A DNA stretch of 33,267 nucleotides from contig JAGBWX010000094.1 of NCBI GenBank assembly GCA_017629575.1, forward strand, positions 1-33,267. Reading direction: 5' to 3'. A program made the position numbers and the translations under genes. Below the pieces are notes generated by a model that worked only from the letters and a program-made list of their open reading frames with translations, did no database searches and was not told the DNA's origin. Origin of the DNA: Spirochaetales bacterium. GTDB taxonomy: Bacteria > Spirochaetota > Spirochaetia > Sphaerochaetales > Sphaerochaetaceae. Shown here piece after piece: positions 3 to 31,048 of the stretch. Every line of letters starts with the position of its first letter. Position 1 is the first letter of the stretch.

Positions 3-2921
<2,919 letters not shown>

Positions 2922-3568: not shown

Positions 3569-4697
3569 TTAAAAGCCTCATCGAAATAGACAGAACCTCT
3601 TCTGCATCTCCCTGATAAGCACCTCTGAAAAGAACATCTTTTCCACCGCCCTTCAAGCTGACCTCTCCCTTCAGCTTCAAGAACTTCTCCTTAGTTCCAA
3701 AATAAAGGAATCCCTTCTTGCCATCGCGCTCTATGATAAGAACATCCTTGCCAGCCTTCGATACAAGCTCCTGATAGTCTTCTACGCTATTGTTTGTGAT
3801 GAATGCGAGAACAGGGGCTGTTGATGACTGAAGTGCATCCTCAAACTCACGCTCTGCTACAGCCTTTCTGAGCTTCTTAACTTCATAGGAAAGATCGCCA
3901 TTGTCCTTGATGATGCGCTCGATATCCTTAACAATGGAGTCCTTGTCTGCAGAAAGCAACTTATAGCATTCCTTGAGAAGTCTCTCATTGTTTCTTCTAT
4001 AGGCAACACTCTCGTCAGCACATGACCACATAGTCCTTACATGACCTCTGATCATCTCCTTGCCACGATACACAACTTCCTTTATCTCGCCAGTTGATGC
4101 TACATGAACACCGCCGCATGCAACAGCATCAAGGTTTTCAATAAATACGACCTTAACATCTCCATCAACCTTGATTGAGCGACGCATTCCAAGGCTTTCT
4201 GCCTTCTCGTGGCTCATCTCATCTTGATAGATTTTCAAGCCATCTCTGATCTTCTCATTTGCAATATCTTCGATGCTGAGAAGGACATCATCAGCAATAT
4301 CCTCTGCACTTGTTTCAATGGTGAGGATTTCTTCTCCCTGATGGACTGCAACAGTGCCAATACCCTTGAAAGAGAACATGACAGCTGATAGAAGGTGCTG
4401 TGCACTATGCTCCTTCATGAACTTATATCTATGGTCCCAATCCAAAGAAAGCTTTAGACATGCACCAACTTCAGGAAGGCTGCCCTTCTTGAGGATGTGT
4501 AGGAATGCTCCATCCTTGTCCTTCTGAGTGTCTACAACCTGATATTCGCCATAGTAGCCCCTATCTCCAGGCTGTCCACCACTCTCTGCATAGAAAATTG
4601 TCTTATCTAAGACAACTGCATTACCCCTTACCTCTAAGACAGTTGCATCAACTTCCTTGAGGTACGCATCCTTATAAAATAAAAGTTCTGTATTCAC
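3561..4697 (-). CDS. alaX: Alanyl-tRNA editing protein, AlaX-L type
   Basis: This 378-residue free-standing editing domain, related to the C-terminal half of alanyl-tRNA synthetase, hydrolyses mischarged Ser- or Gly-tRNA(Ala). The N-terminal part carries FYAESGGQPGDRG (35-47). The zinc ligands are visible as HSAQH (H97, H101) and CGGVH (C194, H198). The C-terminal third, with a GGGKDVLFRG motif, resembles the DHHA1 domain of the long AlaX class, and the length fits. The start is a GTG (4695-4697) that overlaps the upstream TGA as GTGA, with a GAGG ribosome site about 11 nt before it. It is the middle gene of the TRIC-alaX-VTT operon, implying translational coupling. Confidence 0.9.
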   Translation of the reverse strand: MNTELLFYKDAYLKEVDATVLEVRGNAVVLDKTIFYAESGGQPGDRGYYGEYQVVDTQKDKDGAFLHILKKGSLPEVGACLKLSLDWDHRYKFMKEHSAQHLLSAVMFSFKGIGTVAVHQGEEILTIETSAEDIADDVLLSIEDIANEKIRDGLKIYQDEMSHEKAESLGMRRSIKVDGDVKVVFIENLDAVACGGVHVASTGEIKEVVYRGKEMIRGHVRTMWSCADESVAYRRNNERLLKECYKLLSADKDSIVKDIERIIKDNGDLSYEVKKLRKAVAEREFEDALQSSTAPVLAFITNNSVEDYQELVSKAGKDVLIIERDGKKGFLYFGTKEKFLKLKGEVSLKGGGKDVLFRGAYQGDAEEVLSISMRLLSE

Positions 4698-5326
4698 TGT
4701 TTATAAACCTCAATTGGCACCCTAGCCACTGGCAGCTTAAGGCGACACTTATATCCAATTATCCTTGATACGATAACAACTATGGCGACAAGCCACATTA
4801 TTACCATTTCTGGGCAAGCTGTCTTTGTTAGAAGAACAAAGAGAATACTTCCAATAACGCCTGCAGAGGCATAGAAATCTGATGTGAAGATCATTGGAAC
4901 TTCTCTAGAGAACAGGTCTCTCAATACACCGCCGCCAGATGTTGAAAGCATTCCACAGATAATGATGCCGATTACATCAACGCCCATTGCATATGCCTTA
5001 TTGCAGCCTAGCGCGCAGAATACTCCAAGACCTAGCGCATCACAATAGACAATCAACGACCATCTGCCAACAACATATTTGCTGAAGAAAATTACCAATA
5101 GAGCGGCAATTACACAGACAACGACATACATGTTGTCGGTATAAACACCAACTGGAGTCGCACCAAGCATTGTGTCTCTAATGATTCCGCCAGCACAGCC
5201 AACGGTTACTGCATATACGATGACTCCAAGAATATCCAATTTATTCTTTATTGCCTTGATTGCTCCAGAGAGCGCAAAGATAAAAGTACCAAAGATATCA
5301 AGCCCATAAAGAATTGTGTCATGCAT
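4694..5326 (-). CDS. TRIC/YicG-like membrane channel protein (UPF0126 repeats)
   Basis: A 210-residue membrane protein built from two homologous repeats. Each contains a glycine-rich kink followed by Arg-Asp: GCAGGIIRD (about 44-52) and STSGGGVLRD (about 128-137). This is the hallmark of the trimeric intracellular cation (TRIC) channel family, formerly UPF0126/YicG. About six to seven membrane segments are apparent. Prokaryotic TRICs conduct monovalent cations, but some YicG relatives have been linked to glycine uptake, so the substrate is open. It is first in a three-gene minus-strand operon. No Shine-Dalgarno precedes the ATG; a -10-like TATCCT lies exactly 6 nt upstream. Confidence 0.88.
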   Translation of the reverse strand: MHDTILYGLDIFGTFIFALSGAIKAIKNKLDILGVIVYAVTVGCAGGIIRDTMLGATPVGVYTDNMYVVVCVIAALLVIFFSKYVVGRWSLIVYCDALGLGVFCALGCNKAYAMGVDVIGIIICGMLSTSGGGVLRDLFSREVPMIFTSDFYASAGVIGSILFVLLTKTACPEMVIMWLVAIVVIVSRIIGYKCRLKLPVARVPIEVYKQ

Positions 5327-5332
5327 ACACTA

Positions 5333-5361
5333 AGGATAAATCAAAAAGGTACCGTTGTGAA
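5333..5361 (-). promoter_or_regulatory. Candidate promoter of the TRIC-alaX-VTT operon, leaderless
   Basis: On the minus strand a -35 TTCACA (5356-5361, 5 of 6 consensus bases) is separated by 17 bp from a -10 TATCCT (5333-5338, 4 of 6). The ATG follows after only 6 nt, which places the predicted transcription start on the start codon. No ribosome-binding sequence is present. Confidence 0.55.
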
Positions 5362-5391: not shown

Positions 5392-5397
5392 TATATT
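5392..5397 (+). promoter_or_regulatory. Candidate -10 of the SAWEIALE gene
   Basis: TATATT (5 of 6 consensus) lies 6 nt before the ATG at 5404. A weak purine run AAAGGG (5385-5390) sits 13 nt before the ATG, too far for a normal Shine-Dalgarno. No convincing -35 was found at 16-18 bp, so this is weaker than the divergent minus-strand promoter 30 bp away. Confidence 0.35.
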
Positions 5398-5403
5398 ATT
5401 CAC

Positions 5404-5985
5404 ATGGGAAGAATAAAAAGCGCATGGGAAATCGCCCTAGAAAGAACAGACGACATTGAAATCGACGTAGATAGAATCCGCAAGAACGAGACTTACGAAA
5501 AAATCAGAAAGATTGCAGGAGCCTATCTTCTGGCAGAAACAGCTGAAAATGACAGCCTTGCAGAGAAGTTTTCCGACTTCTCAGATGACGATTTGAGAGA
5601 AGCTCTCACACAGACAGTAATGAACAAGCTTACCTTGCCTTCAGATGAGGTAATGGACGATAGATACGAAAGAGTTGCTTTCATCCTCACTCAGATTGCA
5701 AGAAACGAATCAACAATGGAACTATTTGGACAGATTGCAAACTTCTTGATGCAATATCCTATCCACAAGAAACAGCTCATTGAGCAGATGAAGGCACAGT
5801 TTGAGCCTATCTTGAGGGAAAAGGAAGCTAAGATGAAGGAGCAATACGGAGAAAGCTTCCATGTCTCTCTAGAGCAGGACAAGGAATTCTTGGAAATCTT
5901 GAAGAAGAATCTTGAACGCCTCGATGAGCAGTACAATGCAACACTCCAGGATGCTAGAGAACAGCTCAAGGGTTGCTTAGCTTAA
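5404..5985 (+). CDS. Conserved hypothetical protein, 'SAWEIALE' N-terminus
   Basis: A 193-residue soluble, highly charged protein of unknown function. It begins MGRIKSAWEIALERT, which I recognise as the start of a conserved hypothetical family seen in spirochaetes and some other anaerobes (possibly DUF6657; from memory and unverified). The sequence is almost all predicted helix, and residues from about 125 onward look like a coiled coil rich in Lys and Glu. No catalytic motif is visible. The reading frame stays open upstream to an ATG at 5314, but that start overlaps the divergent TRIC gene and its extra residues look non-coding, so I place the start at 5404. A strong terminator follows, so it is probably monocistronic. 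Confidence 0.75.
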   Translation: MGRIKSAWEIALERTDDIEIDVDRIRKNETYEKIRKIAGAYLLAETAENDSLAEKFSDFSDDDLREALTQTVMNKLTLPSDEVMDDRYERVAFILTQIARNESTMELFGQIANFLMQYPIHKKQLIEQMKAQFEPILREKEAKMKEQYGESFHVSLEQDKEFLEILKKNLERLDEQYNATLQDAREQLKGCLA

Positions 5986-7353: not shown

Positions 7354-8463
7354 CTATTCGAACAATGAGACATCAAGAGGCTTGCCAATGGCACCTCTCG
7401 CTTTCATCATCATTGGCTTTGCGTTAATGAGTATTACACCCTTAAGGATACCATTGCTATGCACTAAGGTAACTCTTCTGCCATCCTTCTCAACAAGAGT
7501 CTTCTCTCCATCAAGAATTCCAAAAGAAGCAACATCAATGCCACTTACTTTCAATATAGTGGATGGCTCAGATGGAGAATAGAGTGAAGAATCTCCGTCT
7601 ATGTTCTTTGCGGCAAAGATGCCCATCTCTCTTGCATACATTGCAAGGGCAAAGCACTTTCCATCAAGTTCAGATACATCGCCAACAGCATAAATTCCAT
7701 CGCAAGATGAAAGATTATTCCCAACTAAGATGCCTCTATTGCACTTTACCCCTGAGTTTTCTGCAATAGCCTTTGCAGGTCTAGAACCTACAGAATAGAT
7801 CAAGATACCCTTCTCAAATTCGCTTCCATCAGAGGCAATGAGCTTACCATCTCTTTCAGCAACCATCTTGATTCCAGTTACAATCTTGATTCCCTTTTCA
7901 GCCATTGCTTCCTTGAGATATACAGCGCTATCTCTATCAAGCTGAAGAGGGAGAATATATTCGGATGTCTCAAAGACTGTGACAGGTCTATCAAAGGCTG
8001 TTTTTATAGTATCTGCAAGTTCCAAGCCCAAAAGGCCTCCGCCAATAATTGAGACAGGTGCATCAGATGACAAGATTGCAGCCCTGATTTTCTTTGCATC
8101 ATCAATTGTTCTGAGAGTATAGCCTTCAGCAAAAGGAAGATTTACAGCATCTGAGCCTGTTGCAATGATCAACTCGTCATAATCAAATTCTCTTCCATCT
8201 GCTAAATGGACTTTCTTTCCATCTCTATCAATCTTGGCAGCCGCTCCATAAACAAGGGAGATTCCCTTTTCTGCGTACCAAGACTCAGGGTGGATGAAGA
8301 TAGTACTCTCATCTTTGCCTGATATTACTTCTTCAAGCCTCATTCTGTAATATGGAGGGTAACTTTCTCTGCCAATCAGAGTAACGCTATTCTTTCCTGC
8401 AAGAGTGGTAGCTGCATTAGCACCTGCAATGCCTGCTCCGATGATTACAACATTCTTATTCAT
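7354..8463 (-). CDS. FAD-dependent NAD(P)H oxidoreductase (rubredoxin-reductase/NirB-like)
   Basis: A 369-residue two-dinucleotide-fold flavoprotein. It shows the FAD-binding GAGIAGANAA near the N-terminus, the ATG motif in LIIATGSD (about 97-104), the NAD(P)H-binding IIGGGLLGLELA (about 137-148) and the second FAD motif YAVGDVSE (about 260-267). It resembles NADH:rubredoxin reductases and the N-terminal part of NirB, so it may pass electrons to a rubredoxin or act in oxygen detoxification. The exact acceptor is inference. The frame stays open through the upstream tRNA-Cys, but MNKNVVIIGAGIAG at 8463 is the natural start. No Shine-Dalgarno precedes it; TAAAAT lies 8 nt upstream. Malic enzyme follows 8 nt later. 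Confidence 0.85.
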   Translation of the reverse strand: MNKNVVIIGAGIAGANAATTLAGKNSVTLIGRESYPPYYRMRLEEVISGKDESTIFIHPESWYAEKGISLVYGAAAKIDRDGKKVHLADGREFDYDELIIATGSDAVNLPFAEGYTLRTIDDAKKIRAAILSSDAPVSIIGGGLLGLELADTIKTAFDRPVTVFETSEYILPLQLDRDSAVYLKEAMAEKGIKIVTGIKMVAERDGKLIASDGSEFEKGILIYSVGSRPAKAIAENSGVKCNRGILVGNNLSSCDGIYAVGDVSELDGKCFALAMYAREMGIFAAKNIDGDSSLYSPSEPSTILKVSGIDVASFGILDGEKTLVEKDGRRVTLVHSNGILKGVILINAKPMMMKARGAIGKPLDVSLFE

Positions 8464-8471
8464 ATCATGAA

Positions 8472-8477
8472 ATTTTA
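8472..8477 (-). promoter_or_regulatory. Candidate -10 of the FAD-oxidoreductase/malic enzyme operon
   Basis: TAAAAT on the minus strand lies 8 nt before the ATG at 8463, again without a Shine-Dalgarno. An alternative TATATA lies at about 8481-8486. The -35 position falls in the T-run of the tRNA terminator (TTTTTT), so support is weak. Confidence 0.3.
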
Positions 8478-14965: not shown

Positions 14966-15059
14966 AAGATGATGGCGGAAGGGTATAGATAAAATTCTCC
15001 CGTAAATTAAAGATGACCACAAGCAGGACATGACACAGGAGAAGCTCCGCCACCATCTT
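14966..15059. repeat. 14-bp near-perfect inverted repeat around the recombinase relic
   Basis: AAGATGATGGCGGA (14966-14979) is an inverted copy, with one mismatch, of TCCGCCACCATCTT (15046-15059). The two are 66 bp apart. The right copy lies inside the serine-recombinase fragment and the left copy just after the gpsA terminator. A related AAGATGATGCC lies in inverted orientation at 15978-15988, at the far end of the relic region. Confidence 0.7.
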
Positions 15060-15146
15060 ATTGACACCTTTGTCAATGCAGTCTTTATCCATGATGATAG
15101 AATTCTGATCGGCAACAACTTCCAGAACGACGGACTCCTGTTATAA
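15003..15146 (+). pseudogene. Serine recombinase remnant (C-terminal end)
   Basis: The frame ending at 15144-15146 encodes the stretch LRHHLIDTFVNAVFIHDD (within the 38 codons from 15030). This closely resembles the C-terminus of large serine recombinases of Firmicutes-type mobile elements, which I recall as RRRLIDTFVNAVYLYDD. An in-frame stop at 15003-15005 closes the frame upstream and no catalytic resolvase domain is present nearby, so only the last 40 or so residues survive. I infer an old integration event, probably of a conjugative or mobilisable element acquired from gut Firmicutes. A short real peptide is unlikely because there is no ribosome site. Confidence 0.7.
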
Positions 15147-15394
15147 CTTTTATAAGATCAACGTCGTAATAAGGGCGGATAAGTTTTAGCTAATCTTCGC
15201 GAATAAGATTTATATTTTCAAAACCTCCTTAAGAATATTGTCTTATGAAAATATATACACTTTTATTTTCATAAACACATATCATATCCAGTAATTTTGC
15301 AAGAATAGGATATTATATTTTCATTATTAAAATGACCATAGTAAATTTTCCAATACGACGCACTTTGTGCTAAATCAACTTATTGGAGGTCGTT
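15147..15394. other. AT-rich intergenic stretch with repeated TATATTTTCAT motif
   Basis: About 250 bases without a gene. It contains four copies of an 11-base motif: TATATTTTCA at 15212-15221 (plus, lacking the final T), ATGAAAATATA at 15245-15255 (minus), TTTATTTTCAT at 15262-15272 (plus, one mismatch) and TATATTTTCAT at 15314-15324 (plus). The second and third form an 11-bp perfect inverted repeat (15243-15253 with 15264-15274). The stretch lies immediately upstream of the tyrosine-recombinase relic, so the copies may be old recombinase or regulator binding sites. Confidence 0.5.
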
Positions 15395-15511
15395 ATGAAA
15401 CACGACAAAACATTTGAAGAGTTTTTGAAACATAGCAATTTGTCTCAAAACACTCAAACCTCTTATCTGTGGACATCGAAATTCAGGATATTTATTTCTC
15501 AATCGATTTAA
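15395..15511 (+). pseudogene. Tyrosine recombinase remnant (N-terminal end)
   Basis: A 38-codon frame starts MKHDKTFEEFLKHSNLSQNT and continues QTSYLWTSKF. This matches the SAM-like core-binding N-terminus of phage-integrase/XerD-type recombinases, where the segment LS-NT--SYL is characteristic. A good GGAGG ribosome site (15385-15389) lies 5 nt before the ATG, so the translation start survives. The frame ends after about 38 residues and no catalytic domain follows; the next DNA is the 3' end of a Fic gene on the other strand. It is a truncated integrase gene. Confidence 0.7.
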
Positions 15512-15945
15512 TGAACGAATTACAACAAGAGGAATTCCTCTTTTCAGGTTTTTATAATTAGCACGTACAAGGGCATTCCTAAAATACCAGCTATTTTCCG
15601 CAAATATGTCATTGTCAACTTTGTAACCCATTAACGGAGGTATTTGATTGTAAAAACAACAGTTGTTCTAGTATTTTCTTCTCCAAAAGCATGAATCTAC
15701 CAAAGGCGTAAAACAAAAAAGTAATGTGCTTAACAATTTCATCCTTTGGAAGACTGGAATACTTAAACTTACGTTCCATATCAAAATCGTAATCAAGAGC
15801 TGCCTTGAGTTCAAAAGCAGCTCCATACATTACGGTATCGCCATTCAACACCCATTCTTTATTTGTAATATCGTGATCGCGTATTTTGCCTGCAACTTTA
15901 AAGATATCTTAAAAAAGCCTATTGTGAATTGAAATCAAATATGAA
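15512..15945 (-). pseudogene. Fic/DOC-family protein, decayed
   Basis: Read on the minus strand in pieces, this encodes a Fic-domain protein. One frame gives FKVAGKIRDHDITNKEWVLN and GDTVMYGAAFELKAALDYDF (about 15905-15780). After a frameshift near 15715 it gives RLW-stop-IHAFGEENTRTT, whose motif HAFGEENTR (15667-15693) corresponds to the Fic catalytic loop HxFx(D/E)GN(G/T)R. A second frameshift near 15632 gives the C-terminal NSWYFRNALVRANYKNLKRG (about 15585-15533). A TAG at 15697-15699 replaces the expected Gln codon, and a TAA lies near the N-terminus. Fic proteins usually AMPylate targets and often belong to toxin-antitoxin modules. This copy cannot make an active enzyme, and its 3' end is cut off where the integrase relic begins. 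Confidence 0.8.
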
Positions 15946-15954
15946 GGACTGAAA

Positions 15955-15988
15955 TTAAAAGATGGTTCACTAAGTGTGTGGCATCATC
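15955..15988 (-). terminator. Possible weak terminator after the aldo/keto reductase gene
   Basis: Immediately after the stop codon on the minus strand, AAGATG and CATCTT can pair around a loop containing a smaller CAC/GTG helix, followed by TTAATTT. The stem is short and the U-tract poor, so this is a weak call. Confidence 0.3.
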
Positions 15989-16837
15989 TTATAGGATATC
16001 AAGTGGCATCTTGTATCTTGGTGGAGGGAAGGATCCATCAAGCTTTGCCATATATGGCTTGATATCAAAATCAAGACATTTCATATTTAAGTCTACATGA
16101 GCTCTTGAACCAGCCTTTGGCGCTGTGATGATATCTCCATTTCTGATTACGAAACTAAGCATCAATGCCTCAGGTGAAAGACCTGTTTCCTTGCATATCT
16201 TCTGGACTTCGCTATTCATTGTGAATCTTCTTCTCAGGCTCATATTGTTTGCTAGTGGAGAGTAAGCCATAGGAAGGATGTCATGTTCCTTGAGATATGG
16301 AATAAGGTCGTACTCAATGCCTCTTGATGTGATGTTATAGAGGACCTGGTTTACGAAACAGTTCTCACCACCATCACAGGCAAGAAGTTCTTCCATCTCA
16401 TCAACATCGAAGTTTGATACGCCCCACTCCTTGATAAGACCTCTGCTCTTGAGATTTTCCATCTCATCGATGACAAACTGAAGATCCTGTCCAGTCCACC
16501 AATGAAGGAGATAAAGGTCGATATAGTCTGTTCCAAGACGTCTGAGAGAACGTTCGAAAGCTCTTCTGAAAACACCTGGCTCAGCATTGTTTGGGAGAAT
16601 CTTGTCAACGATGAACAAATCTTCCCTATCCTTCTTTTTGAGAACCTCTGCGATAAGCTTCTCTGACTCGCCATATCCATACATCTCTGCAGTATCGATA
16701 AGGGTCATTGAATACTCTTCAATTCCATGCAAAAACGATGCAATCTCCTCGCCTCTTTTTGAGGGATTCTCACCAATAAACCAAGAGCCAATGCCTACCA
16801 AAGGCAGCTTAATTCCTCTATGTGTCAAATACTTCAT
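15989..16837 (-). CDS. Aldo/keto reductase
   Basis: A 282-residue NADPH-dependent (by family) aldo/keto reductase reducing an unknown aldehyde or ketone. The catalytic tetrad is visible as D48 and Y53 in IDTAEMYGYGESE, K79 in VDKILPNN and H112 in YLLHWW. VSNFDVDEMEELL corresponds to the conserved GVSNF strand. Length is typical for the 2,5-diketogluconate reductase-like class. The ATG directly follows the TAA of the SIMPL gene, and its GGAGG ribosome site lies inside that gene's end, so it is the last gene of the mrp-NUDIX-SIMPL-AKR operon. Confidence 0.9.
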   Translation of the reverse strand: MKYLTHRGIKLPLVGIGSWFIGENPSKRGEEIASFLHGIEEYSMTLIDTAEMYGYGESEKLIAEVLKKKDREDLFIVDKILPNNAEPGVFRRAFERSLRRLGTDYIDLYLLHWWTGQDLQFVIDEMENLKSRGLIKEWGVSNFDVDEMEELLACDGGENCFVNQVLYNITSRGIEYDLIPYLKEHDILPMAYSPLANNMSLRRRFTMNSEVQKICKETGLSPEALMLSFVIRNGDIITAPKAGSRAHVDLNMKCLDFDIKPYMAKLDGSFPPPRYKMPLDIL

Positions 16838-23534: not shown

Positions 23535-23537
23535 AGA

Positions 23538-23543
23538 TATAAT
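23538..23543 (+). promoter_or_regulatory. Candidate -10 of the molybdenum hydroxylase gene
   Basis: A perfect TATAAT just after the dCMP deaminase stop. No convincing -35 was found. The predicted start is near 23550, where the leader stem begins. Confidence 0.4.
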
Positions 23544-23550
23544 ATATTAA

Positions 23551-23592
23551 GGTAGGTATCACAGACCCCCCTCAGGAGCTAAGCGGCTTGCC
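23551..23592 (+). promoter_or_regulatory. Possible structured leader of the molybdenum hydroxylase mRNA
   Basis: In RNA, GGUAGGU (23551-23557) can pair with GCUUGCC (23586-23592) through seven pairs including three G-U. This encloses a GC-rich 28-nt loop with CCCCCC and CAGGAG. It would lie at the very 5' end of the predicted transcript, just before the ribosome site AAGGA (23597-23601). It does not match a riboswitch class I can recall with confidence. Confidence 0.3.
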
Positions 23593-23606
23593 AGTAAAGG
23601 AATATG

Positions 23607-26378: not shown

Positions 26379-27380
26379 TTAGAGACTTGCAATCTCGATG
26401 ATCTTCTTGTCTTCTGCTGCAGAGAAATCACGCTTTGTCTTAAGGGCAGAAAGGCTCTTTGAAAGCTGTTCCTTGTTTCTAGCACCAACGATAACAGATG
26501 TAATATTCTGCTTGGAAAGAATCCAAGTAAGTGCCATCTGTGTGAGGCTTTGGCCACGAGATGCTGCAATGTCATTGAGAGCGTTGAGCTTTTTAACCAT
26601 CTTTTCATTGATATCGCTCTCTGAAAGGAACTTGTTCTCCCTTGCTCTGCAGTTCTCTGGAATATTTCCAGAAAGATACTTATCTGTAAGAAGGCCCTGA
26701 GCAAGAGGTGAGAATACAATTGTTCCAATGCCATTGTTCTCAAGCCCTAAGAAGAGGTTGTCTCTATCATCATTTTCCCTGTTGAGGATTGAATAGCTTA
26801 CCTGATTTAAGATTGGTGAGATATTCCACTCTGTCTCAAGAATCATCTTTGCCTTTATAGCGAGCTCCAGTGGATAGTTTGAAATAGCAACATAGAGAGC
26901 CTTTCCACTTCTTACAAGCTGTGCAAGAGCCTCCATAGTCTCATATAAAGGAGTATTTGGATCTGGACAATGGTGGTAGAAGATATCTACATACTCAAGT
27001 CCCATTCTCTTTAATGACTGGTTGCATGAAGAGATAAGGTACTTCTTTGAACCACCTTCTCCGTATGGTCCTGGCCACATATCATATCCAGCCTTTGATG
27101 AGATTACCATCTCTTCTCTATAAGGAAGGAAGTTATTCTTGAGAATCTCTCCGAATCTTTCTTCTGCAGAGCCATAGATTGGACCATAGTTATTTGCAAG
27201 GTCAAAGCTGGTAATACCGTTGTCGAAGGCACACTTAACGATATCTTCTGTTGTTTTGTAATCAGAATTTGTACCAAAATTGTGCCAGAAACCAAGTGAC
27301 ATCTCGCTGAGCTTTAAGCCAGAGGCACCACATCTGTTATACTTCATTTCTTCATATCTTTTTTCATTTGCAATATACAT
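26379..27380 (-). CDS. yghZ: YghZ-type aldo/keto reductase (L-glyceraldehyde 3-phosphate reductase)
   Basis: A 333-residue aldo/keto reductase of the Kv-beta/YghZ group. In E. coli YghZ reduces L-glyceraldehyde 3-phosphate and methylglyoxal, a detoxifying role. The tetrad is D60 and Y65 in FDLANNYGP, K96 in SSKAGYD and H137 in FYHHCPD. SKAGYDMWPGPYGEGGSKKY is a very specific YghZ signature. The N-terminal MYIANEKRYEEMKYNRCG aligns with the E. coli start (I recall WLANPERYGQMQYRYCG), so the first ATG at 27380 is right even though no ribosome site precedes it. TAGAAT lies 7 nt upstream. It is divergent from the PepT-like gene across 37 bp. Confidence 0.92.
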   Translation of the reverse strand: MYIANEKRYEEMKYNRCGASGLKLSEMSLGFWHNFGTNSDYKTTEDIVKCAFDNGITSFDLANNYGPIYGSAEERFGEILKNNFLPYREEMVISSKAGYDMWPGPYGEGGSKKYLISSCNQSLKRMGLEYVDIFYHHCPDPNTPLYETMEALAQLVRSGKALYVAISNYPLELAIKAKMILETEWNISPILNQVSYSILNRENDDRDNLFLGLENNGIGTIVFSPLAQGLLTDKYLSGNIPENCRARENKFLSESDINEKMVKKLNALNDIAASRGQSLTQMALTWILSKQNITSVIVGARNKEQLSKSLSALKTKRDFSAAEDKKIIEIASL

Positions 27381-27382
27381 AC

Positions 27383-27411
27383 ATTACATTCTAAGACATA
27401 AGGTGTAAAAT
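27383..27411 (+). promoter_or_regulatory. Candidate promoter of the PepT-like gene, leaderless
   Basis: -35 ATTACA (27383-27388, 4 of 6) and -10 TAAAAT (27406-27411, 5 of 6) are separated by 17 bp. The ATG at 27418 follows the -10 after 6 nt, so the predicted start coincides with the start codon. Only a poorly placed AGGG lies between. Confidence 0.5.
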
Positions 27412-27417
27412 AGGGAT

Positions 27418-28473
27418 ATGAATGTTGAAAAATATTTCAGGGAATTAATTGCTATCCCTTCCCCATCTAAAAATGAATGCAAAGTCTCATCCTACATGAA
27501 AGAAAAGCTCTCATCTTTTGGATTTTCATATCGAGAAGATGAGGTTGGAAACATCCTTTTCTACAGAACATTAGAGGGTGAAAAGATTGTGTTATCTTCC
27601 CATATGGATACAGTTCCACCAGCTGTAAATGCTGTCATGCTTGAAGACGATGAAAAGTTCTTCACAGATGGAACAACAGCCCTCGGCGCAGATGACAAGT
27701 GCGGACTTGCTGCAATTCTGTCAGTGGCAGAAGAATACAAAGGCGATGACTATGCGATTCTTCTTACTGTTGCAGAAGAAATTGGACTTTGGGGCTCGTC
27801 ACATCTCAAGAAGGAATTCTTGGATACAATCAACATTAAACATGTCTTTGTAATGGATGCAACAGGAGATGTTGGGACAATCATTAACAGTCAAGTTGGA
27901 AAATCTAGAGTCACCCTAACCTTCAACGGAAAGAAATCCCACGCAGGCTTCAAGCCTGAGAATGGAATCAATGCAATCGTAATGGCATCAAATTTCATAT
28001 CATCAATCAAGACAGGAAGACTTGAAGAACTCACCACATCAAATATCGGATCATTCATTGCAGAAGGTACAACAAACGTTGTTCCAGACAAAGCTACAGT
28101 AGTCTTTGAAGTAAGATCTAACAGAAGCGAAACAAGATTTGAAATCATAAGAGAGTATATCGCAAAGGCAACGGAGGCTGCATCAAAGCTTGGTGGTTCG
28201 GTGGACGTTTTTGAAGAAGATCTCTATACAGAATACTGTGTAAATGAGGATTCAGACATCATAAGACATGCACTCAAGTCCTTCAGCTCAATCGGTATTG
28301 ATGCAAAAATCAAATCAACTACAGGTGGTTCAGATTCAAATAATCTCAATAAGTTCGGAATTTCTTCTGTTGTTTTAACATCTGGATATTACAGCGCACA
28401 TTCAACAAGCGAATATATTGAGAAAAAGCAGCTTGGACTACTTTATAAAATAGCAAGAGCTCTCTTTAACTAA
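27418..28473 (+). CDS. PepT-like M20-family metallopeptidase
   Basis: A 351-residue cytoplasmic di-zinc aminopeptidase, resembling the PepT-like/tripeptidase group, that trims short peptides. The metal ligands and catalytic residues are H62 and D64 in SSHMDTVPP, D92 in GADDKCGLAA, the Glu pair E120/E121 in TVAEEIGLWG, D147 in VMDATGDVG and H328 in SAHSTSEY. The lid domain includes KSHAGFKPENGINAI (about 174-188). It is shorter than E. coli PepT (408), as usual for the PepT-like branch. Its stop region overlaps the convergent RNase D gene by 8 bp. Confidence 0.88.
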   Translation: MNVEKYFRELIAIPSPSKNECKVSSYMKEKLSSFGFSYREDEVGNILFYRTLEGEKIVLSSHMDTVPPAVNAVMLEDDEKFFTDGTTALGADDKCGLAAILSVAEEYKGDDYAILLTVAEEIGLWGSSHLKKEFLDTINIKHVFVMDATGDVGTIINSQVGKSRVTLTFNGKKSHAGFKPENGINAIVMASNFISSIKTGRLEELTTSNIGSFIAEGTTNVVPDKATVVFEVRSNRSETRFEIIREYIAKATEAASKLGGSVDVFEEDLYTEYCVNEDSDIIRHALKSFSSIGIDAKIKSTTGGSDSNNLNKFGISSVVLTSGYYSAHSTSEYIEKKQLGLLYKIARALFN

Positions 28474-28479
28474 GAGAGC
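28459..28479. terminator. Hairpin spanning both stop codons of convergent genes
   Basis: GCTCTCTT (28459-28466) and AAGAGAGC (28472-28479) form an 8-bp stem with the loop TAACT. It contains the TAA of the PepT-like gene and the TAA of the RNase D gene. U-tracts on both sides are weak (CCTTCTTT and TCTTGCTATTTT), so it is a compact, probably bidirectional terminator inside the 8-bp gene overlap. Confidence 0.5.
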
Positions 28480-29359
28480 CCTTCTTTGCTATATTCTCCA
28501 TATTTTCCTTTCTTGCCTTCTCCAAAGCTTCCCACACCTTAGGGGCAAGGAGTTCCCTGAATCTAGGACTCTCTGCAGATAGACGAACCTTCATCATATC
28601 TATTGTCTTTGGAGGATTCTTTGCAAACTCGATTATCCTCTTTTTATCCATCACGCGAGCAGCTGGGACATTGAAGCGACGAGCAAGAGCATCCCTTGAT
28701 AAATATAAGTGGCGTACTATGTTCTTCTCGCTTTCTGTGTAATGTCTCCAGTTGCCAACTCTCTTATACCCAGGCTCTGGCTTTTTGACATCAGTTGCCT
28801 TCTTCATAAGCCTATCAACTTGTGGAGAAAGATTTTTCTTTGATACCTCTTCTGAAAGAATGTCCTCAAGTTGGAAAAGATATGTAACATCCATCAGTGC
28901 ATACTTGATGAGCTCTTCATCAATTGGACGCCTCATCCAGTTTGCCTGCTGATTCTTTTTCTTGTTGATTGTTAATTCAATGCCCAGATATTCCTTAACA
29001 AGACCAAGTAAGTTGCCATCATAGCCAAGGGCCTTTGCCATAACTCTTATGTCCATGATATTTGCGATTTTCAGTTCATAGTTCTTGTAGACAAGTGAGT
29101 GATCAGATTGGCAGTCAAACCATACTTTCTTTACTGGCATGGAAAAAAAGGCTTCTAAGCCTTTGACTGTAAGAGCTTTGCTTCTTGGATCTATGATATA
29201 AAAGACATCCCCATCATATACCTGGATAAGACATAGATGTTCGCCATATACATGCAAATTGAACTCGCCTTCAAAGTCTACTGCTATTTTCTCTTTAGAA
29301 TTCAGGACTTCAATGGCTTTAAAAAGCTCTTCATCACTATTGATCTGGGTATAATTCAT
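28466..29359 (-). CDS. rnd: Ribonuclease D-like 3'-5' exonuclease
   Basis: A 297-residue DEDDy exonuclease that trims 3' ends of tRNA precursors and other RNAs. The metal-binding residues are D28 and E30 in VDFEGEF, D86 in CQSDHSLV and D157 with Y153 in YALMDVTYLF. A single HRDC-like domain (about 200-280) follows, whereas E. coli RNase D has two, which explains the shorter length (297 against 375). No normal ribosome site precedes the ATG: a GGGAGGAA sequence is buried in a hairpin that ends 3 nt before the start codon. It is probably the third gene after the WYL regulator and the outer-membrane protein gene. Confidence 0.9.
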   Translation of the reverse strand: MNYTQINSDEELFKAIEVLNSKEKIAVDFEGEFNLHVYGEHLCLIQVYDGDVFYIIDPRSKALTVKGLEAFFSMPVKKVWFDCQSDHSLVYKNYELKIANIMDIRVMAKALGYDGNLLGLVKEYLGIELTINKKKNQQANWMRRPIDEELIKYALMDVTYLFQLEDILSEEVSKKNLSPQVDRLMKKATDVKKPEPGYKRVGNWRHYTESEKNIVRHLYLSRDALARRFNVPAARVMDKKRIIEFAKNPPKTIDMMKVRLSAESPRFRELLAPKVWEALEKARKENMENIAKKGSLS

Positions 29360-29362
29360 AAG

Positions 29363-29388
29363 CTCTACAGGGATTCCTCCCTGTAGAG
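29363..29388 (-). promoter_or_regulatory. GNRA-capped hairpin directly before the RNase D start codon
   Basis: On the minus strand CTCTACAGGGA and TCCCTGTAGAG form a perfect 11-bp stem closed by the GNRA tetraloop GGAA. The ATG follows after only three bases (CTT). The only Shine-Dalgarno-like sequence, GGGAGGAA, lies in the end of the 5' arm and the loop. There is no T-run after it, so it is not a standard terminator. Confidence 0.75.
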
Positions 29389-29419
29389 TTTAACTAAAAC
29401 ATCTCTTTCTTTAAAGATA

Positions 29420-30046
29420 TTAGTACATCCTCATGACTGCAATTCTTGGTGAGATTGCAAATCCACTCTGATTATACATGCCTGATGATGCATATGGTCC
29501 CTTCTCAACATCTTTATGGATGTACAGTGGGACAGACATCTCTGCAGATGCAACGAGTGAAACCCAATCGTCAAGACGGAATGCGAAAGATGCATCGGCA
29601 ATCATGAAGTTGCTATATGTTGATACGATGCCATAGTCTACAGAAGCAACAGTTACTGGAGTGCTTCTGTACTCAAACATGTAGCCAACACCGGCTTCCA
29701 TTGTCAGCATGCTATTAATTGGCTGACGATAACGAGCTGTGATACTTGGTCTAATTCCAGCTGAAAGACTTGATAAGCTATGGTCTCCCTGCTCTGAATA
29801 GATTGGTGCTGTTACGGCAAATCCATATCCAACGCCAAACTTAGCATCACTTCCAAAAAAGTTAGCTCCTTCAATTGCGATTGGTACAACCATGCTGTAC
29901 CCACCTACGCTGAGGTCATCAGTTCCAAGCTTTGTCTCGCTCCAATAGAACTCTGCACCACTTTCAAAACCAATTCTATTATAGGAAGCAAACAACCCAG
30001 ACATAGAAATGATAAGAACAATAAGAATGTAGAAAACTTTCTTCAT
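29420..30046 (-). CDS. Outer-membrane beta-barrel protein
   Basis: A 208-residue exported protein. The signal peptide is MKKVFYILIVLIISMSGLFA with likely cleavage after A20 or A21. The mature protein has alternating polar and hydrophobic beta-strand patterns, many Gly, Ser and Tyr residues, and ends in an aromatic (RIAVMRMY), the usual C-terminal beta-signal of small outer-membrane barrels. I do not recognise a more specific family. GAGGAG lies about 10 nt before the ATG. It follows the WYL regulator gene by 41 nt and precedes RNase D by 60 nt, so an operon is possible. Confidence 0.7.
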   Translation of the reverse strand: MKKVFYILIVLIISMSGLFASYNRIGFESGAEFYWSETKLGTDDLSVGGYSMVVPIAIEGANFFGSDAKFGVGYGFAVTAPIYSEQGDHSLSSLSAGIRPSITARYRQPINSMLTMEAGVGYMFEYRSTPVTVASVDYGIVSTYSNFMIADASFAFRLDDWVSLVASAEMSVPLYIHKDVEKGPYASSGMYNQSGFAISPRIAVMRMY

Positions 30047-30087
30047 TTTTTATATCTCCTCTAATCGAGAAGATAATCATGAATTTT

Positions 30088-31014
30088 CTAAAGTCCAAAC
30101 TTATCTTTCAATGTTTTAATTTCATTTTTATAATTCTCAACAAACTCTTCTGGAGCTATTGGCTCGGCTTTTACGCCATAAGAAAGCACTTTGCTAACAA
30201 GCTCAATATCATTAGTTGCAGGGACTGTAAGCTCAAAGGTATCATCATCAATCCATCTGCCACTCTGATTCTTGTGCCAGACCTGCAAAGATACTATATA
30301 TGCAATATTGTCATAGAATCGCATTGTATAGTTCTTAATCTCGGCTTTTGGATTATAGAAGATTCCGAATCCACTCTCATCGATTTTTTCCAGCTCTGAA
30401 GTATCTGTGAATTCAAAGAATTCATTCATTACTTCAATCTCCTTGATTCTTGAGAGAGAATAAGTCTTAATCTCTGGTCCATTGTAGGCTTGGGTATCTA
30501 CAGCTCTCAAATACCAAACAGATGAGTAGTTAATCAACTCCAATGGCTCAACAAGACGCTTGAAGGGTCTCCTCTTTGGCCTGCAATAGAGAATAGAGAC
30601 TCTCTTCTTTACCTCAATTGCGCTCATTAATGAGAAGAATGTCGAATAGTCAGGCATCTCTGTCGCCTGCGACATATATTTAACCTTTCCTTCCTTGATA
30701 TCCTCACCTCTGAAAGCTTCCTTCAGAGGGTTAACAGAGGAAGCTGCAACAGCAGAAGCAATAACATTCTGAGAGAGAATCCTCTGGAGCTCTCTCTCAT
30801 CTCCATAAAGTCTATAGCTCTTGTCATAAGGATCATAATCAAGCTCAACTCTGGCACCAAAGTGCATCTTTTCAATCTTTTCCTTGATGTATGAGATATC
30901 ACGTCTAACCTGCCTGTCGCTGACGCTGTAGATATTCATGATTTCCTTGGTTGTGACTTTTCCATAGCGGCTGAGTCTATCGATAATCTGGATAATTCTT
31001 TCTGCTTGGCTCAT
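30088..31014 (-). CDS. WYL-domain transcriptional regulator (YafY-type)
   Basis: A 308-residue regulator. The N-terminal DeoR/HTH-11-type helix-turn-helix (about 3-58) shows KVTTKEIMNIYSVSDRQVRRDI. The WYL domain (about 130-220) shows the RRPFKRLVEPLELINYSSVWYLRAVD segment that gives the family its name. A C-terminal WCX-like extension follows. WYL proteins bind ligands, often nucleic acid or nucleotides, and respond to stress or DNA damage; the target here is unknown. RNase D two genes downstream is an interesting partner but the link is inference. No Shine-Dalgarno is present; a strong promoter ends 6 nt before the ATG. Confidence 0.9.
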   Translation of the reverse strand: MSQAERIIQIIDRLSRYGKVTTKEIMNIYSVSDRQVRRDISYIKEKIEKMHFGARVELDYDPYDKSYRLYGDERELQRILSQNVIASAVAASSVNPLKEAFRGEDIKEGKVKYMSQATEMPDYSTFFSLMSAIEVKKRVSILYCRPKRRPFKRLVEPLELINYSSVWYLRAVDTQAYNGPEIKTYSLSRIKEIEVMNEFFEFTDTSELEKIDESGFGIFYNPKAEIKNYTMRFYDNIAYIVSLQVWHKNQSGRWIDDDTFELTVPATNDIELVSKVLSYGVKAEPIAPEEFVENYKNEIKTLKDKFGL

Positions 31015-31020
31015 AAGCTA

Positions 31021-31048
31021 ATTTTAAACTACCCGTGGGACATTTCAA
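31021..31048 (-). promoter_or_regulatory. Candidate promoter of the WYL regulator gene, leaderless
   Basis: On the minus strand -35 TTGAAA (31043-31048, 5 of 6) and -10 TAAAAT (31021-31026, 5 of 6) are separated by 16 bp. The ATG begins 6 nt after the -10, so transcription should start at or next to the start codon. No ribosome site exists in this space. Confidence 0.6.

Follow-up and report, generated by a model that had tools for sequence, protein, structure and literature searches.

Promoter boxes set against start codons point to leaderless mRNAs beside Shine-Dalgarno-led genes in a Spirochaetales genome

Sequence analysis of this Spirochaetales genome indicates, with a probability that we put at about 0.93, that a part of its genes is expressed from leaderless mRNAs, transcribed from sigma70-type promoters set directly against the start codon, while other genes use the Shine-Dalgarno (SD) mode. 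The genome displays -10-like hexamers at a fixed distance before start codons, further promoter features around them, SD-led genes beside them and conservation of the arrangement within the genus. The window, the whole stretch of 33,267 nucleotides that was analysed, is contig 68 of an assembly of 1.41 Mb in 131 contigs that is 85% complete and in which no 16S gene turned up. The organism probably lives in the gut, judging from its gene content and the type of assembly.

The predicted promoter elements of the window are as follows, each with the evidence for it.

31012–31014, minus strand: ATG of the WYL/HTH_DeoR-type regulator gene (30088–31014), its A being the putative transcript +1; open reading frame and Pfam.
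31021–31026, minus strand: -10 box TAAAAT of the WYL regulator, 6 nt before the ATG; sequence and homologues.
31043–31048, minus strand: -35-like TTGAAA of the WYL regulator, with a 16-bp spacer; sequence, such -35 matches being enriched genome-wide.
12–17, plus strand: -10 box TATAAT of lacZ (GH2 beta-galactosidase), 6 nt before the ATG (24–26); sequence.
5333–5338, minus strand: -10 box TATCCT of the TRIC/PF03458 gene (4694–5326), 6 nt before the ATG; sequence and Pfam.
5392–5397, plus strand: -10 box TATATT of the DUF6657 gene (5404–5985), 6 nt before the ATG; sequence and Pfam.
8472–8477, minus strand: -10 box TAAAAT of the FAD/NAD oxidoreductase gene (7354–8463), 8 nt before the ATG; sequence.
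27388–27393, minus strand: -10-like TAGAAT of the aldo/keto reductase gene (26379–27380), 7 nt before the ATG; sequence.
27406–27411, plus strand: -10 box TAAAAT of the M20 peptidase gene (27418–28473), 6 nt before the ATG; sequence and Pfam.

Pfam searches assigned the products to GH2 beta-galactosidase, PF03458 (TRIC-like), DUF6657, pyridine nucleotide-disulphide oxidoreductase, aldo/keto reductase and M20 peptidase, and the product of gene 30088–31014 to WYL plus HTH_DeoR. The coding strand of the WYL regulator reads TTGAAA-16 bp-TAAAAT-TAGCTT-ATG. A preliminary description of this DNA had reported hexamers 6 nt before the starts of five genes (lacZ, TRIC, a SAWEIALE gene that corresponds to DUF6657, a PepT-like gene that corresponds to the M20 peptidase, and the WYL regulator), and all five were recovered at the positions listed above, together with the TTGAAA lying 16 bp upstream of the WYL -10 box. 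The boxes it had described at 8 nt (FAD-oxidoreductase) and 7 nt (yghZ, the aldo/keto reductase) were likewise found. Its further claim that these genes have no SD sequence held overall, with the exception of a chance AAGG before the DUF6657 gene and another before the M20 gene; these motifs lie at or upstream of the -10 box and thus outside the predicted mRNA. The FAD/NAD oxidoreductase mRNA would carry a leader of 0–2 nt. The lacZ gene stands at the contig edge, which places its -35 region beyond the visible sequence.

Elsewhere in the window, a molybdo-hydroxylase-like gene (ATG at 23604) is preceded by a TATAAT-like box and then a GC-rich leader of ~50 nt (23535–23603, plus strand), with no clear SD by the ATG. 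No Rfam family matched this leader, which is possibly structured. Positions 15000–15990 hold decayed gene pieces, among them a short frame from ~15396 with similarity to the beginning of a phage-type integrase, and this segment may be the remnant of a mobile element.

The hexamer was then counted in 80 stretches of the same genome, ~771 kb including the window, or ~55% of the 85%-complete assembly. Genes were called with a codon model and a start-codon prior, upstream signals being left unused. The codon model is simple and some starts are wrong; such errors would dilute a TANNNT signal and would not create it. The 606 usable genes divided into 353 with an SD core 4-mer and 253 with none; the classes compared below are SD-less non-operonic genes (n = 218), SD-led first genes (n = 197) and SD-less operon-internal genes (n = 35). 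Background was estimated from 200 dinucleotide shuffles.

TANNNT ended 6 nt before the start in 42 of the 218 SD-less non-operonic genes and 7 nt before it in 25, on an otherwise flat profile of ~5 per position. The shuffles gave means of 7.1 at 6 nt and 7.0 at 7 nt, with a maximum of 15, and never exceeded 16 at spacings of 5–8 nt. SD-led first genes displayed no peak (6/197 at 6 nt, 3/197 at 7 nt); in SD genes the -10-like boxes are spread ~15–35 nt upstream, which fits normal leaders, and the SD core itself forms a sharp peak 5–9 nt before starts. The preliminary description had proposed such a count as a check, and the outcome across the sampled genome agrees with its prediction: -10 hexamers are enriched at 6–7 nt, solely in SD-less non-operonic genes; SD genes have their -10 further upstream; and two modes of initiation appear to coexist in one genome, the leaderless one being deduced from its boxes. 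Among the 192 genes whose upstream neighbour lies on the other strand, 49 had a box at 6–7 nt and no SD, and 80 had an SD. By a rough count, the excess amounts to ~53 of the 606 genes (~9%), or about a fifth to a quarter of the clear transcription-unit heads; ~136 SD-less first genes had neither signal.

The 67 genes with a box at 6 or 7 nt carried further features expected of promoters. Their consensus was TATAAT, with T and G enriched at the TGn positions. TTG in the -35 position peaked at spacers of 17–18 (18 of 67 genes, against ~1–2 per other position), and a TTGACA-like match of at least 4/6 at 16–18 bp was present in 31 of the 67 (shuffle mean 10.9, maximum 21). TG stood one base ahead of the box in 19 genes, only 4 of which had a -35 match, compared with 27 of the 48 without TG, a tendency towards mutual replacement (p = 0.014). 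The base at -1 was a pyrimidine in 57 of the 67 genes (39 of the 42 at spacing 6), compared with 58 of 136 other SD-less genes (43%; p = 5e-9) and 108 of 197 SD genes (p = 5e-6). This bias is expected if the A of the ATG is the +1 of a Y(-1)R(+1) initiator. These sequence data argue that the hexamers are real promoter elements, accompanied by a -35 or TGn and by an initiator at the start codon.

The arrangement upstream of the WYL regulator is conserved in the genus. Among 20 WYL homologues from the same genus (28–38% protein identity), which are not independent samples as some of the species are near neighbours, TANNNT lay 5–7 nt before the ATG in 18, in 13 of them at exactly 6 nt, and occurred at few other positions; none of the 20 had an SD. 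The M20 peptidase and WYL regulator genes (27418–31014) also face each other and lie close together in many genomes of the genus, forming a conserved neighbourhood.

The alternative that fares best, although we consider it highly improbable, is that the hexamer is an element of the mRNA, acting through ribosomal protein S1 or as an A/U-rich translation enhancer within a leader that starts at a distant promoter, and is not a -10 box at all. Both roles, S1 site and Pribnow box, have been put forward for A/T-rich stretches that precede starts without an SD (PMC5397173). However, the genes that would need an enhancer most, namely the SD-less operon-internal ones, had the box in only 1 of 35 cases (1 at 6 nt, 0 at 7 nt; p = 4e-5 against the first-gene rate), so that the hexamer is not simply a translation signal. 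The identity of the box as TATAAT, its fixed phase of 6–7 nt, the -35 at 16–18 bp, the TGn and the pyrimidine at -1 are moreover features of a promoter.

A still slimmer chance attaches to the possibility that the starts were mis-called and that the true ones lie downstream, behind ordinary short leaders. Start calling from codon usage is imperfect, and a few calls were indeed truncated; nevertheless, the peak was equally strong at ATG starts with no in-frame alternative upstream (25 of 71 at 6 nt, 11 of 71 at 7 nt), and random error cannot yield one sharp spacing. In-frame internal ATGs displayed a codon-phase ripple only. Family models matched from residue 1 in the members of the leaderless set that were tested (TrkA, Era and Uup-type), and all 20 same-genus alignments of the WYL regulator start at residue 1. 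Chance, to which we assign next to no probability, would draw on AT-rich intergenic DNA (the genome is 40% G+C), in which TANNNT is frequent, but shuffling produced ~7 per position against the 42 and 25 observed, with adjoining spacings at background. As a cause for the whole set it is refuted by the shuffles; ~14 of the 67 box genes are expected by chance, and any single gene may be such a match.

According to the leaderless reading that we favour, the sigma70 (housekeeping) holoenzyme would bind the -10 box plus either a -35 or an extended -10, and transcription would begin 7–8 nt past this box, either at the A of the ATG itself or 1–2 nt before it. The 5' ends would then lie at the ATG, and initiation would take place at a 5' AUG: ribosomes, probably as intact 70S particles, would engage the leaderless mRNA at this terminal codon. 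Intact 70S ribosomes start leaderless mRNAs in other bacteria. Other genes at the head of a transcription unit, like most of those inside operons, use a normal SD leader in this genome.

The leaderless set is composed of household genes, including MalQ, TrkA, Era, HflX, an EF-G-like protein, DNA polymerase IV, aminotransferases and transporters. A functional theme was not found in it: no family accounted for more than 3 of the 59 proteins, and a matched SD set was similar. It is conceivable, but in our judgement doubtful, that the leaderless state has been selected gene by gene in the genus, for example in the WYL regulator, because it places these genes under a translational control of their own, for instance by making them less dependent on normal 30S initiation during stress, and is not a neutral by-product of where promoters happen to be placed.

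We also compared how often TATAAT precedes ATG at the two spacings in other genomes, counting TATAAT-N(6,7)-ATG against TATAAT-N(10,11)-ATG, a control preferred to the reversed pattern, which was judged too weak. Among the 48 genomes examined from the genus, the shorter spacing was the more frequent in 46, with overall totals of 3538 and 2386. By family, the same ratio was ~2.3 in f6, 2.7 in f60 (genus g102), 1.4 in f3 and 1.3 in f9 (genus g13), and ~0.9, the background level, in f62 and in f5, a family that we take to be Borrelia-like and one member of which has a chromosome of Borrelia size. Gene-level profiles, based on ~70–100 kb per genome, had a clear 6-nt peak in G179, G247, G096, G208 and G019 and a weaker one or none in the others. 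A signal that is strong in f1, f6 and f60 and at background in f5 and f62 suggests gains or losses inside the class. Homologue pairs in family f1 (2 leaderless–leaderless, 1 leaderless–SD and 13 SD–SD) were too few for a switching rate.

Leaderless transcription is already known in bacteria, spirochaetes included, and the mechanism is not new; the papers that we searched include none about leaderless genes of Sphaerochaeta, nor any about leaderless Treponema start sites. The present results extend it, with good support, to an uncultured genus of Spirochaetia that is rich in species. This matters for the start-codon annotation of these genomes, as SD-based callers tend to shift such starts, and it helps in choosing spirochaetes in which to study the division between SD-led and leaderless initiation.

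In the available part of Zheng et al. (2011), bacterial leaderless genes are described with TANNNT ~12 bp before the start, and 6 of 18 Spirochaetes genomes are positive, with a mean of 3.9% of genes and a range of 1.8–6.9 (PMC3160421); the genus studied here does not appear by name in that part. The set described here resembles theirs, as far as that part goes, in the hexamer, its distance, the coexistence of SD genes and the TG before the box, which they report for low-GC genomes. Our ~9%, obtained by a different and cruder method, lies at or above their top spirochaete value of 6.9%. In Leptospira interrogans, dRNA-seq identified ~440 mRNAs with a 5' UTR of less than 10 nt, half of them less than 2 nt (PMC5243855); there, within the same phylum, the 5' ends were measured, whereas here they are predicted, and for a different spirochaete lineage. 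GeneMarkS-2 assigns leaderless transcription to 21.6% of bacterial species, as cited in PMC9581028, and the genomes so classed share, by that account, the architecture that our own counts recovered here: a promoter box beside the start at transcription-unit heads, and SD sequences elsewhere.
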